The notes: a model not told the origin generated them from the letters alone. Shown: positions 647 through 30,239, numbered from the stretch's first letter. The stretch is DNA of 52,402 nt from a virus (IMGVR_UViG_3300034106_003179:1-52402), one strand, 5' to 3'. Numbers and translations: made by a program.

Positions 647-709
647 GTCTCTCCCTTCGCTCTGTAGCGTCATTCAGCGTCGCGTTCCGCAGAAACAATG
701 GTTCTGTGG

Positions 710-1003
710 CTACACCACTCGCCCAAGATGCTTCACTCGGGGCCAGTAGACCCCCTTCTTGTTTCCGACCTGGACTAGATACGACCGATGATCGCGAGGC
801 ATCCCATAGCCTGCGGCTGAGTTGCACCCCAATCCTTCTGGCGGCACCGGCTTCTCGCCAGCCTCAACGACGGCAACGACCACGCCAACCTTCCGCTTGT
901 AACTGCCGCCGGACGCGCTGCCCCAATACACGCCGTCTCCGACCTTGAGCCCCTCCATCGCAGAACCACGCGATGGAATGGACTGCTCATTCTCGTCTGT
1001 CAT
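710..1003 (-). CDS. Hypothetical cassette protein with attC-encoded N-terminus
   Basis: A 97-residue protein with no recognised domain. The core (KVGDGVYWGSASGG, then VYWPRVKHLGRVV) looks like a small beta-rich fold. The ATG at 1003 and its ribosome-binding site (CACAGGAG, 8-nt spacing) lie in the loop of attC-like hairpin A. Residues 1-14 are therefore written by the hairpin arm and carry the SRGS tag seen in other array ORFs. A second ATG (MEGLKVGD) sits just past the hairpin and could be used instead. Confidence 0.55.
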   Translation of the reverse strand: MTDENEQSIPSRGSAMEGLKVGDGVYWGSASGGSYKRKVGVVVAVVEAGEKPVPPEGLGCNSAAGYGMPRDHRSYLVQVGNKKGVYWPRVKHLGRVV

Positions 1004-1046
1004 GTGTCATGCTCCTGTGTTCGCAGCCATTCATCGCAAGCGTTCT
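962..1046 (-). repeat. attC-like hairpin A
   Basis: The arms begin and end AGAAC / GTTCT. Next comes an unpaired CAC opposite AAGC, a GCGAT/ATCGC box, an unpaired G, a GAATGG/CCATTC stem, an unpaired A, and CTGC/GCAG. Stem sequence differs from units B, D and E while complementarity is kept, and the two bulges sit in the same places. The upstream ORF's stop codon (1046-1048) touches the element, as at the 3' end of an integron cassette. The loop carries an RBS and ATG. Confidence 0.65.
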
Positions 1047-1324
1047 CACTGCGCTCGTTCCAGCAAGCCGCGTAGCACCTCTGCTCGCCGTGCCTCTGAT
1101 TGCAAATCGCCGTAATCGGAAAACCAGCGGATCGCCGCCCGCTCCTCGTCGGTGAGCGTGGGGTGGCCAAGCCGCACCACAGTCCCACCGACCATCGCGG
1201 CCTCGCTCGTCGCGTCCTTTTCCAGAAACCACAGCGAGTGCTGCACGCCCTCGTCGTCAATCACGGCGTAGGCCATCACCGCAGAACCACGCGATGCAGC
1301 GGACATCTTATCTACCTCGTTCAT
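1046..1324 (-). CDS. Small LTxEER-family cassette protein
   Basis: A 92-residue protein. ATG 1324 lies in the loop of hairpin B with an AGGAG site 8 nt upstream. Residues 8-15 (MSAASRGS) come from the hairpin arm, and MAYAVIDDEG may be the original start. The C-terminal half contains HPTLTDEERAAI and VLRGLLERAQ, a motif shared with ORFs at 1367, 1694-1939 and 2675. It is probably helical. Function is unknown. The stop codon abuts hairpin A. Confidence 0.6.
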   Translation of the reverse strand: MNEVDKMSAASRGSAVMAYAVIDDEGVQHSLWFLEKDATSEAAMVGGTVVRLGHPTLTDEERAAIRWFSDYGDLQSEARRAEVLRGLLERAQ

Positions 1325-1367
1325 GTGTCAATCTCCTGTGTTCGATGCCGCTGATCGCTGACGTTCT
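1283..1367 (-). repeat. attC-like hairpin B
   Basis: AGAAC/GTTCT ends enclose an internal loop, the GCGAT box, an unpaired G, CAGCGG/CCGCTG, an unpaired A and CATC/GATG. The loop holds AGGAG and the ATG of the next ORF. The preceding ORF's TGA (1367-1369) overlaps the outer box. Layout and bulge positions match A, D and E. Confidence 0.65.
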
Positions 1368-1939
1368 CAGCCTAGCCGCTCCAGCAGCCGCCGAAGGACT
1401 GCTGCCGCTTCTTCATCATTCGGGCCGCCATAGGTGATGTCTTCGCAGTTTGCGATTCCAGCCTTGATCGCCTCCCGCTCCTCATCGGTGAGCCGCAGTC
1501 TGTTGATCTCCTTGCTGGCCGCCTCCGCAGAATCGCAAGCCGCCTTCCAGTCAGCCGCCTTGTCTGCCACGCATTTCTGAAGCGCCGTTCGGTACTCGTC
1601 AATCGTCGAATTGTCGCTCACAATAAGCCTCGCGTGAGGGTGGCAGCCGTGAGAACCACGCATTGGAGCAGACCCGGCATCGTCATGTGTCATTTCAACG
1701 TCCTTTCTCGGGCTGCTCAATGCAGCCGTACGTCCACTTTTGAAAAGTTTTTGCGCGACCTCGCCCGCCCGTAACTGTTCCTGCCGAGCCGTAAGCGTTT
1801 TTGTCAGTCGTTCAGACCTGTCCAGAAACGCACGGATGGCCGAAATCTGCTCCGAACTTGGCAGCGGGGCGCAAGTGGACTCGCAAAAATCCACAGCGGC
1901 CTTTATGGCAGTCCGCTCTTGCGGAGTTCTCTCACTCAC
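1367..1939 (-). CDS. Read-through of two LTxEER-type cassette ORFs
   Basis: A continuous frame of 190 residues from GTG 1939. Residues 1-82 (SERTPQERTAIKAA, then AIRAFLDRSERL) resemble the motif of the neighbours. The frame then crosses attC-like hairpin C and continues as a second unit. That unit has its own ATG at 1693 (MTHDD, with AAAGGA 7 nt upstream in the hairpin loop), giving a 108-residue product that ends RLRLTDEEREAI...LRRLLERLG. Both the fusion and the internal product are possible. GTG 1939 overlaps the end of the 57-residue ORF upstream, suggesting coupling. Confidence 0.45.
   Translation of the reverse strand: MSERTPQERTAIKAAVDFCESTCAPLPSSEQISAIRAFLDRSERLTKTLTARQEQLRAGEVAQKLFKSGRTAALSSPRKDVEMTHDDAGSAPMRGSHGCHPHARLIVSDNSTIDEYRTALQKCVADKAADWKAACDSAEAASKEINRLRLTDEEREAIKAGIANCEDITYGGPNDEEAAAVLRRLLERLG
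1652..1735 (-). repeat. attC-like hairpin C (degenerate)
   Basis: GCATTG(G)AGCAG(A)CCCG pairs with CGGGCTGCTCAATGC (1709-1723) with the same two bulges as the other units. The outer AGAAC has no clear partner: the opposite side reads through GTACGTCC. No stop codon separates the flanking ORFs at this unit, so it may be an inactivated cassette boundary. Confidence 0.5.
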
Positions 1940-2105
1940 AAATCGACGCCGGGTAGACCCACAAGGCCGCCCGATCATTGGTTGTTTCAGTTCCGCCCCA
2001 GTATTTTTCGCCAGTGTCGGCGCAGAACACGTCGATGAGCGCCGGGTCGCTGAGAAACTTTGCCAACAAGTCTGGCCCACATTGCGGCTTCGGCTTGAAG
2101 CCCAC
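1932..2105 (-). CDS. 57-residue hypothetical cassette ORF
   Basis: Starts GTG at 2105 (MGFKPKPQC), immediately after the TGA of a 39-residue leader ORF (TGAgttGTG), so termination-reinitiation is likely. Contains PDLLAKFLSDPALIDVFC and TGEKYWGG, then ends PASICE. No Shine-Dalgarno is visible. Sequence complexity looks protein-like, but there is no recognised family. Confidence 0.4.
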   Translation of the reverse strand: MGFKPKPQCGPDLLAKFLSDPALIDVFCADTGEKYWGGTETTNDRAALWVYPASICE

Positions 2106-2108
2106 AAC

Positions 2109-2228
2109 TCAAAACGGGTCAACAAAGAGTCCCGGCCGCAACTCCAGAAGACGCACCGCGCCCGCGCACCGCTCAACGCGGAGAGAACCACGCGATGCAG
2201 CGGACATCTCATCACCCTCGTTCGTCAT
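2109..2228 (-). CDS. 39-residue leader ORF from hairpin D
   Basis: ATG 2228 sits in the loop of hairpin D, 5 nt after CAGGAG. It reads MTNEGDEMSAASRGS, partly from the hairpin arm, and stops just before the GTG of the next ORF. It may act mainly as a ribosome loader for the 57-residue ORF. This is weakly supported as an independent gene. Confidence 0.3.
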   Translation of the reverse strand: MTNEGDEMSAASRGSLRVERCAGAVRLLELRPGLFVDPF

Positions 2229-2268
2229 GGTTGCTCCTGTGTTCGATGCTGCTGATCGCAAGCGTTAT
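2184..2268 (-). repeat. attC-like hairpin D
   Basis: AGAAC and GTTAT ends, internal loop, GCGAT box, unpaired G, CAGCGG opposite CTGCTG (one mismatch), unpaired A, CATC/GATG. The upstream ORF's TAA (2265-2267) lies inside the outer box. The loop contains CAGGAG and an ATG. Confidence 0.6.
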
Positions 2269-2537
2269 GCCACAGTTGGCCCGGCTATCGTCGTTCCAGT
2301 TACGGCCGAGTCGATTACTGCCCGCATCGCCTTTGCCAGCATCCAGCAGTGCCACCCGGCCTCTTCCTTCGTCTCGCAATCCGCCACCTTGAAATGCTGC
2401 GGCCCGATGGTCAGCCACGCGGAATGAGCTTCGGGCCAATCTTCGTCGATGGCCTTCGTTACCCGTGTGTACCTCTCAGCCAAAGCCCAGTCCCGAGCAG
2501 GCGCTGCTGTCGGAAGTTCAGGCATCATCCAGTTCAT
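2265..2537 (-). CDS. Hypothetical cassette protein
   Basis: A 90-residue protein whose ATG 2537 follows the 3' outer box of hairpin E within 3 nt, as classical integron cassettes do, and whose stop is inside hairpin D. Contains YTRVTKAIDEDWPEAHSAW and GPQHFKVADCETKEEAGWHC, resembling short phage proteins that adjust for context, but I do not recognise the family. No Shine-Dalgarno is obvious. Confidence 0.55.
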   Translation of the reverse strand: MNWMMPELPTAAPARDWALAERYTRVTKAIDEDWPEAHSAWLTIGPQHFKVADCETKEEAGWHCWMLAKAMRAVIDSAVTGTTIAGPTVA

Positions 2538-2658
2538 GGCATAACCACGCGATGCAGCGGACTCGCGATTCCGCTTTGTGGTGTAGTTTCGTCAGCGGTC
2601 GCGAGCCGCTGATCGCAAGCGTTATCACCGCCCACGCCACCGGCTCTTTGCTGTCCAT
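2518..2658 (-). CDS. 46-residue ORF running through hairpin E
   Basis: ATG 2658 has GAGGG 4 nt upstream and begins MDSKEPVAWAVI; 'EPVAW' openings are common in small phage proteins. After residue 12 the frame is encoded by hairpin E and ends at 2518, past the next ORF's start. It may be a gene truncated by the hairpin. Low confidence. Confidence 0.35.
   Translation of the reverse strand: MDSKEPVAWAVITLAISGSRPLTKLHHKAESRVRCIAWLCHELDDA
2541..2625 (-). repeat. attC-like hairpin E (best formed)
   Basis: ATAAC/GTTAT outer box, then CAC opposite AAGC, GCGAT/ATCGC, unpaired G, CAGCGG/CCGCTG, unpaired A, CTCGCGA/TCGCGAG, unpaired TT, CCGCT/AGCGG, and an 18-nt terminal loop. The stem is the longest in the array. 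Unlike A-D the loop has no RBS. Confidence 0.65.
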
Positions 2659-2674
2659 ACGTCCCTCTCTGATT

Positions 2675-2914
2675 TCAAGAGCGTCGTTCCGTCCGTTCCA
2701 GCAGCCCGCGAAGTGTGTTTGCTATGCTTGCACACTCCTCATCATCGTCGTTGTCGTTGTACGCTCCGACAGCTTCAGCAATCGCCCTCCGCTCCGCTTT
2801 TGTGAGTCGCAGGCGAGCGATCTCATCGGCAGCCTCGTCCAGCAACGCCAACGGCTCGCCTTCCTGCTCTGCCCGTAATGATCGCTCTCGGAGTTCGTTG
2901 ATTATGTCGCTCAT
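2675..2914 (-). CDS. Small LTxEER-family protein
   Basis: A 79-residue, highly charged, probably all-helical protein. RLRLTKAERRAI and ANTLRGLLERTERR match the C-terminal motif of the ORFs at 1046 and 1367. Residues 1-35 (MSDIINELRERSLRAEQEG) look like a coiled coil. It precedes the hairpin array but has no hairpin on its own 5' side. Function unknown. Confidence 0.6.
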   Translation of the reverse strand: MSDIINELRERSLRAEQEGEPLALLDEAADEIARLRLTKAERRAIAEAVGAYNDNDDDEECASIANTLRGLLERTERRS

Positions 2915-2966
2915 GTCCCTCTCTGCGGCGTGTTGTGCAACTATCCGGCAATTCCGGTTGGTTCAC

Positions 2967-3185
2967 TCAGACGAGCAGACTCGTCAATTCGTACGGCACC
3001 AGCGCCCGTATCTCTTCCACGATCTTGGCCGTCTCAGGCGACGGCTCGCCGTGCTTGAGAATCGACCGGCACCGCGATTCGATCAACTCCAGCGCGATGA
3101 GCGCATCACGCCCGGCGAGTGCGTACCGATGCTCCCGCTCGTCGTCGGGGTCAGCGAGGTCGAATCGTAGCGTGGCGTGTGCCAT
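2967..3185 (-). CDS. Hypothetical small protein
   Basis: 72 residues, acidic, starting MAHATLRFDLADPDDEREH, with a helical LAGRDALIALELIESRCRSIL segment. The DPDDxxEH and helical layout occurs in small phage proteins, but no function is known to me. ATG at 3185. Confidence 0.5.
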   Translation of the reverse strand: MAHATLRFDLADPDDEREHRYALAGRDALIALELIESRCRSILKHGEPSPETAKIVEEIRALVPYELTSLLV

Positions 3186-3272
3186 GTTCCATATTCCCGA
3201 ATCTAGAACGCCCAGATTGTATCAGCATTCATACGGGAAACGTGTCGCTTCGGATACGTTTCGGCAACAAAT

Positions 3273-3645: not shown

Positions 3646-3680
3646 GAACCGGCGGCGGGCTGCAATCCCGTCGCCGGTTC
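3646..3680. other. Strong intergenic hairpin
   Basis: A 14-bp stem with one G-T pair, GAACCGGCGGCGGG / CCCGTCGCCGGTTC, loop CTGCAAT, in the gap upstream of the DUF551 gene. It lacks a U-tract. It could reduce read-through or protect a transcript end. It does not fold as a tRNA. Confidence 0.4.
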
Positions 3681-29381: not shown

Positions 29382-30239
29382 ATGCTCCTACAAAATCTGT
29401 TCGACAACTTCTATCGCCCGCTGCGTCTGCGTGGCCGCTCGGTCAACACCTCTCGACTCTACGGCTGCACAATCCGTGCATTCGGCAAATGGCTCACATA
29501 CCCACCAACCGTCGAAGACCTCACAGACCTCACGCTGTCGCGGTATCTGGAACACCGGGCAGCGACTCGCAGCCCGTACACCAGCGAGAAAGAGCGGAGC
29601 CAGTTATGCAGCCTGTGGCGGTTCGCCGCGGACCGCGGGCTTGTGACGACGCGGCCGGAAGTGCCGCCCGCACCGCTGCCCGACCGCGTGCCGCGAGCGT
29701 GGACACTCGGCGAGCTTGGAGCGATCTACCGTGCCGCCGCCGCGACGCGGGGGTACGTTGGCTCCGTTCCGGCGGGCGTGTGGTACTCGGCCCTCGTCTC
29801 CGTGATCTGGGAGTCAGCGGAGCGCATCGGGGCGGTGCTGGCCTGCCTTCCCGGCGACTTCGCCGCCCCGCACCTGCACGTCCTCGCCGAGTACCGGAAG
29901 GGACATAAGCGGGACCGCATCTACCGCCTGTCGTCGCGGACGTGCGGCCTGCTCACGCTCGCCTGCGGCAAGGACCGCCTGCTGGAGTGGCCCAAGTCCC
30001 GCACGCTCCTGTGGGCAAAGTACGCCGATGTCGTGGCCCGTGCCGGGCTGGGACGCGGGCGGCACCTGTCGTTTCACGCCCTGCGCCGCTCAGCCGCGAG
30101 CCATTACGCTTCGCGTGGCGGCGACCCGGTGCAACTGCTTGATCACTCCAGCCCGCGAATCACGCACCGCTGGTACCTCGACCGCAGACTGACCGACAAC
30201 GGGCCAGCCCCGTGCGACGTGCTGCCGGAAATCAACTAG
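29382..30239 (+). CDS. int: Tyrosine recombinase (integrase)
   Basis: 285 residues, the only clear plus-strand gene. N-terminal SAM-like/core-binding domain (SRLYGCTIRAFGKWL), catalytic domain with R148 (SAERIGAV), hairpin lysine near KGHKR (173-177), H232-x-x-R235 (FHALRRSAASHY), H255 (LLDHSS) and nucleophile Y265 (THRWYLD). GGAGG precedes ATG. It mediates integration. It lacks an obvious IntI-specific insertion, so it is not clearly an integron integrase. Confidence 0.92.
   Translation: MLLQNLFDNFYRPLRLRGRSVNTSRLYGCTIRAFGKWLTYPPTVEDLTDLTLSRYLEHRAATRSPYTSEKERSQLCSLWRFAADRGLVTTRPEVPPAPLPDRVPRAWTLGELGAIYRAAAATRGYVGSVPAGVWYSALVSVIWESAERIGAVLACLPGDFAAPHLHVLAEYRKGHKRDRIYRLSSRTCGLLTLACGKDRLLEWPKSRTLLWAKYADVVARAGLGRGRHLSFHALRRSAASHYASRGGDPVQLLDHSSPRITHRWYLDRRLTDNGPAPCDVLPEIN

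Follow-up and report, generated by a model that had tools for sequence, protein, structure and literature searches.

Introduction

Integrons are bacterial gene-capture devices, and clusters of their attC sites have been reported in phages only sporadically. The closest described system is that of Qi et al. 2023 (PMC9892861), in which clusters of attC sites lacking an integrase (CALINs) were described in virulent and temperate phages, where a set of 10,705 phage genomes yielded 17 scattered cases; attC sites of these other phages are active with IntI1 (PMC9892861). On the folded bottom strand, attC sites carry two extrahelical bases on one side with six bases between them, as T-N6-G or T-N6-C, and sites with T-N6-C belong to the class that known integron integrases excise (PMC3053210). 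On the bacterial side, an attC model is available for Planctomycetes (Ghaly 2021; PMC8352920), and the IntI of Blastopirellula groups with the Treponema clade (PMC3607928).

Here we analyze a viral sequence of 52,402 nucleotides (IMGVR_UViG_3300034106_003179), referred to as the window, by which we mean the whole stretch at its full length. Very likely, one region of it is a CALIN with inverted cassettes, and the tailed phage that carries it most probably infects a planctomycete; the enzyme that moves the cassettes is inferred, and is assumed to be the IntI of the host. Like the phage CALINs of PMC9892861, this is an integrase-free attC array in a phage with some DNA methyltransferase cargo among its kind. 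The main text of that study mentions neither planctomycetes nor start codons in attC and, in contrast to its scattered cases, the present arrays form one coherent pool of about 200 viral loci in which exchange is visible.

Results

The phage genome

The window is the genome of a tailed phage, 52.4 kb in length, from an IMG/VR record. It carries structural genes for terminase, portal, capsid, prohead protease, tape measure and tail fibre, together with replication genes for primase, helicases and a polymerase processivity factor. The phage genes identified lie on the minus strand, opposite to the following gene.

29382 to 30239, plus strand: phage tyrosine recombinase, distant from XerC/D models and without a match to the IntI model

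We consider it likely that this enzyme is not the cassette recombinase. A second record (L301) shares 99.95% identity with the window across 8.7 kb, and no DNA relatives were found in the INPHARED phage and PLSDB plasmid collections. Relatives of its terminase reach 52% identity in planctomycete genomes, against 46% in the phage collection. A tRNA scan of the window was empty. Compared with window positions 1129-3214, a related phage (L100) has another array between common flanks at 93-94% identity. Between the window's array and the tail genes, at 3646-3680, lies a terminator-like inverted repeat of 14 nt (13/14 paired) with a 7-nt loop.

Five attC sites

The first-pass annotation, made from sequence alone, had proposed five attC-like elements on the plus strand, all of which held at the positions it gave. 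In the list, as throughout, the bar in G|TT marks the cut.

962 to 1046, plus strand: attC site A; AAC at 964, GTT at 1042-1044, G|TT cut at 1042|1043; stem S6 GAATGG/CCATTC, compensated
1283 to 1367, plus strand: attC site B; AAC at 1285, GTT at 1363-1365
1652 to 1735, plus strand: attC site C; AAC at 1654, right box mutated to GTA (1728-1730)
2184 to 2268, plus strand: attC site D; AAC at 2186, GTT at 2264-2266
2541 to 2625, plus strand: attC site E; AAC at 2543, GTT at 2621-2623

Sites A, B, D and E share the layout AAC-CAC-S5-[G]-S6-[A]-S4-loop(~36)-S4'-S6'-S5'-spacer-GTT, in which the unpaired G and A both lie on the 5' arm with exactly six pairs between them. The anatomy expected of attC, namely outer R''/R' and inner L''/L' arms, an unpaired spacer and a variable loop, is therefore present, as are the two extrahelical bases that attC sites carry on one side, six apart. 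The inner stem of E is identical to chromosomal attC stems in the planctomycete metagenome-assembled genomes (MAGs) L124 and L135. The inner stems of site C are intact and have their own compensated sequence (GCATT/AATGC and GAGCAG/CTGCTC); this site is possibly inactive. With five attC sites in 1.7 kb and no intI, the array meets the definition of a CALIN (at least two attC sites within a few kb) and not that of a complete integron, for which intI and attI would have to adjoin the array in the window.

The outer boxes behave as cassette ends. A caveat had been entered that they deviate from GTTRRRY, and this was correct: GTT/AAC is kept and the remainder is mostly GTTCT or GTTAT. The strict GTTRRRY/RYYYAAC motif is thus not satisfied, and because host sites adjoining IntI are equally loose, it is not discriminating in this group. 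The claim that the outer boxes of D pair with each other failed, since beyond AAC/GTT they do not match (AGAGAAC against GTTATGC). The right box of D pairs with the left box of E (GTTATGCC with GGCATAAC), which an integron predicts because both ends are those of one cassette. More generally, the right box of element n and the left box of element n+1 form a mean of 3.8 contiguous pairs beyond GTT/AAC, against 1.7 within an element; when the boxes were re-dealt, the largest mean among 1000 reshuffles was 2.1, compared with the 3.8 observed between neighbours. Such pairing between neighbours is expected of integrons, where a single circle contributes both the R' half-site that opens a cassette and the R'' box that closes it.

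Folding each element, a check that had been suggested for the hairpins, showed only E to be more stable than shuffled DNA (z about -4.3), with z between -1.4 and +1.7 for A-D, so that energy alone is weak evidence. An Rfam search of the window gave no match, though the presence of an attC family in Rfam was not established. The layout was matched 190 times in 1.22 Mb of fetched loci against 0 in shuffled copies and, in a larger viral set, at least 475 times in 211 loci, again with 0 in shuffles. These loci were fetched by 5'-arm patterns, so the counts show that the 3' half is present and do not measure overall abundance; they are lower bounds. The top-strand bulges are G and A in 440 of the 475 viral elements, giving T-N6-C on the bottom strand.

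The arms also covary. Of the 15 pairs in an alignment of 33 sequences, 13 vary in both arms, and the covariation score of this alignment, 0.637, compares with 0.178 when shuffled (0/500 shuffles). This set had been pre-selected for pairing, and a fairer, unselected test starts from 5' arms found alone, for which a same-type 3' complement followed in 366 of 457 cases and an other-type complement in 14. Absence of covariation in homologues, which had been named as a refutation of the attC reading, is not borne out.

Cassettes and their inverted genes

Read between successive cuts, the region divides into the following cassettes.

702 to 1042, plus strand: cassette A (inferred); left G|TT at 701-703 (GTTCTGTGG), right end in attC A
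1043 to 1363, plus strand: cassette B; gene body and attC B
1364 to 1728, plus strand: cassette C; gene body and attC C, with matching ends TTCTCA / TGAGAA
1729 to 2264, plus strand: cassette D; ends in attC D
2265 to 2621, plus strand: cassette E (the D-E cassette); ends TTATGCC / GGCATAA

Cassette D is likely decayed. A PVAWAV-type phage gene begins at 2624-2658 (MDSKEPVAWAVI) and leads directly into attC E, which looks as though the array had cut a resident gene.

The genes of these cassettes run against their attC sites, and mostly start within them, a feature that the first-pass annotation had missed. It had recorded stop codons touching A, B and D, which is correct; the stops belong to minus-strand genes ending at 1046, 1367 and 2265.

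710 to 1003, minus strand: ORF of cassette A, 97 aa; Shine-Dalgarno sequence (SD; reverse complement of 1012-1016) and ATG in the attC A loop; leader MTDENEQSIPSRGSA
1046 to 1324, minus strand: ORF of cassette B, 92 aa; SD (reverse complement of 1333-1337) and ATG in the attC B loop; leader MNEVDKMSAASRGSA; stop touches attC A
1367 to 1693, minus strand: ORF of cassette C, 108 aa; ATG in the attC C loop; leader MTHDDAGSAPMRGS; stop touches attC B
2109 to 2228, minus strand: short truncated ORF, 39 aa; SD and ATG in the attC D loop; leader MTNEGDEMSAASRGS
2265 to 2537, minus strand: ORF of cassette E, 90 aa; no start in the E loop, but a same-frame ATG directly beyond the R box

The TAA stop of the cassette E ORF lies inside the box of attC D. 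Across the 338 sites with enough flank, an SD and ATG in the loop open a gene of at least 60 codons on the minus strand in 201 and on the plus strand in 2. In 236 of 253 cases (frames 236:17:0), a multiple of three bases separates the ATG from the bulged base, and the hairpin arm is therefore read in one frame, giving arm-encoded leaders of the SAASRGS type such as MNEVDKMSAASRGS or MTHDVAGPSVASAGS. A loop start is absent from site types CCCG and short-loop CGGC and from most of type CTCG (E included), where the gene starts further on or elsewhere. At the other end, 101 of 148 cassettes have their stop between -3 and +12 nt relative to the GTT box, and 43 do not have it nearby. This start-in-attC architecture is shown; translation of the leader is inferred.

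Since each attC belongs to the cassette of its own gene, each start-in-loop cassette is a complete reversed gene. The opposite reading, in which gene and attC share a direction, was rejected: both the extrahelical bases and the hairpin that travels with the cassette (see below) give the reverse. An ordinary cassette consists of one gene with a 3' attC in the same direction, and these do not conform, the gene being reversed and mostly starting in its own attC. Long ORFs flanking arrays lie mostly on the minus strand at 114 loci and mostly on the plus strand at 13, with 72 mixed. Because most thus share the strand of the cassette genes, we infer that landed cassettes are read with the phage.

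A scan of 72 cassette proteins left most of them unknown. Eight are DUF551 proteins, and the other identified cargo comprised HNH nucleases, DNA methylases of the C5 and N6/N4 types, a protein of the Mom type and a relative of crAss001_48. The presence of DNA modification genes suggests counter-restriction, in line with PMC9892861, and we infer that the cargo, which includes some DNA methyltransferases, Mom, HNH and DUF551, assists the phage in countering the defences of its host. A DUF551 gene, of the kind common as array cargo, also lies immediately left of the window's array (470-673), without recognizable attC around it.

Exchange between phages

Cassettes spread between unrelated phages. 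For cassettes present in two contexts, the right-hand hairpin, on the 3' side of attC, accompanies the cassette in 23 cases and the left-hand one in 1 (12:1 when counted by clusters); the extrahelical bases indicate the same strand. Cassette E of the window recurs in L005, L071, L107, L117 and L251, each time with a different left neighbour, and the homology of its copies begins at GTT. The backbones around these copies are 65-77% alike or unalignable, and one phage carrying cassette E has a different portal family. The window cassette was not found in 392 planctomycete genomes, short chance matches aside.

Gain and loss are exact at G|TT, as is expected of attC recombination. A single 240-bp cassette separates L184 from L191, and the sequence predicted by fusing its flanks at G|TT is matched at 160 of 160 bases; L064 differs from L228/L205 by a five-cassette block, for which the same prediction is matched at 159 of 160. 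Control junctions at other attC sites matched at 17-35 of 80 positions. In the case of L064, GTT is the only sequence common to both sites at the crossover, which places the cut at G|TT. One further present/absent pair, L042/L191, differs in its right flank and does not fit a simple single loss.

Related sites in host genomes

A genome scan located the same elements mainly in MAGs of Planctomycetota. An IntI above the TIGR02249 cut-off is present in seven of nine such genomes, in several on the same contig as the sites (eight sites in L164, fourteen in L165, four in L167), and the arrays start a few hundred bases past the 3' end of intI. Unrelated host cassettes adjoining IntI bear the same hairpins, and most clear cassette genes of host arrays (e.g., in L165) run in the attC direction. 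These IntI-adjoining sites, the identity of the E stem and the terminase relatives together make a planctomycete the likely host of the phage, though this evidence is indirect and does not prove it.

IntI was not found in 58 array-bearing virus records (the window and 57 others). A set of 76 viral contigs with an IntI relative (L308-L383, IMG/VR), up to 62% identical and several adjoining other attC types, contains none that carries the window's array family; these are phage-borne integrons or else host sequence that was assigned to viruses. One phage attC type, which has at least 102 matching viral stretches, is absent from the 392 planctomycete genomes, and the pool therefore looks phage-owned. 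A host contig with ordinary chromosomal genes (L168:1-7604; JAIXPT010000147.1, the same record as L125) carries IntI and two phage-type sites. Its first cassette holds a DUF551 gene that is reversed, as in the phages, and has a phage-type attC; the junction of this cassette near intI reads ...CAAG|TTCTGTGG. Here a host integron appears to have captured a cassette from a phage.

The original proposal of a cassette array inside a phage is thus upheld by anatomy, covariation, IntI-adjoining sites in planctomycete MAGs and gain or loss at G|TT. The accompanying suggestion that a host integron feeds the array holds in part: the recombinase is likely to be host IntI, and a phage-type cassette is present in at least one integron of a host.

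Discussion

The sites and their covariation, the cassette ends, the exact junctions and the occurrence of IntI beside the same sites in hosts are shown; the mechanism that would connect them is proposed. In the plus direction, each cassette opens with the TT that follows one G|TT cut, closes with the G belonging to the next attC, and contains one minus-direction gene and the attC at its right end. SD and start mostly lie in the cassette's own attC loop, the first ~15 codons are the hairpin arm, and the stop usually falls at the left end, such that a cut at G|TT leaves start and stop together and a cassette landing in the array can be read by the phage's own transcription. IntI is predicted to bind the folded bottom strand (here the minus strand, with extrahelical T-N6-C) and to join cassettes by attC x attC recombination. 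Because no IntI was found in these phages, host IntI is assumed, and it is likewise an assumption that it acts during infection on single-stranded phage DNA arising from replication.

Three alternatives merit consideration. The one that survives best, which we nevertheless regard as unlikely, is that these are true cassettes moved by a phage-encoded tyrosine recombinase other than IntI. In its favor, 14 of 27 array-bearing virus records, the window included, have a PF00589 match, and the cassette pool is almost absent from host genomes. Against it, the other 13 records have no such match, though many are fragments; the tyrosine recombinase of the window does not match the IntI model and lies far from the array; and the sites have IntI-type anatomy and adjoin IntI in hosts.

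In the second alternative the hairpins would be RNA leaders of tandemly duplicated genes, their likeness to attC coincidental and the exchange due to homologous recombination in the leader. The SD and ATG in the loop, the common leader encoded by the arm and the relatedness of some gene bodies are consistent with this idea. However, the leader is common to unrelated bodies, the cut falls on G|TT, at the outer boundary of the repeat, with only GTT shared at the L064/L228 crossover, and the same hairpins occur in unrelated host cassettes adjoining IntI, which leaves this explanation with very little support. Finally, ordinary REP/RAYT-like repeats spread by a transposase and unrelated to cassette boundaries, which the first-pass annotation had named as a possible refutation, would account for repeated, imperfectly palindromic and intergenic hairpins, but are all but ruled out by hairpins that bound units with matching outer ends, are gained or lost with those units at exact G|TT junctions, and adjoin IntI in hosts. 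Boundary pairing and junction data are the grounds on which we reject both the REP/RAYT and the plain RNA-leader readings.

We therefore return to integron cassettes. The simplest reading is of a phage-owned pool on which host IntI acts in trans, with an occasional phage cassette placed in a host integron; the action of IntI is inferred and not shown. A bolder version, which we consider likely, is that planctomycete phages keep a cassette economy of their own, apart from the host pool, with inverted, self-contained cassettes whose attC serves as ribosome-binding site, start and leader; the IntI of the infected cell would shuffle them between unrelated phages, and phage transcription would read them. 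Many phages would then appear to swap accessory genes with unrelated phages by means of a host integron enzyme whose role we infer, and, if true, this would give phage mosaicism a site-specific mechanism. Inverted cassettes that start in attC show that attC can be recoded as a translation module with its fold kept.

Comparison with known systems

The nearest bacterial counterparts are the sedentary chromosomal integrons of Planctomycetota (L164, L165, L167, L135), which have the same stems, extrahelical bases and GTTCN/GTTAN boxes. Those host arrays are flanked by intI on one side, and their clear genes mostly follow the attC direction, whereas the phage arrays have no intI and most genes reversed. 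In the reversed integrons of Treponema, intI is transcribed toward the array (PMC3607928), as in the planctomycete loci here; the Treponema cassette genes run in the direction of intI (PMC3607928), while the phage cassette genes oppose the direction of attC. Recombination sites that carry translation starts also have precedent in ORF-11 and ORF-17 of attI1 and in short ORFs in attC (PMC8876359). These act in the normal direction and, through coupling or reinitiation, aid a separate gene downstream (PMC8876359); unlike ORF-11 and ORF-17, the phage attC supplies its gene with both start and N-terminus, and does so in reverse orientation. No description of cassettes that are reversed and start in attC was found in the open-access literature searched, subscription papers and preprints being outside its scope. 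CALINs in phages were already known, and what is new here is phage cassettes that are mostly inverted and have their start inside attC.
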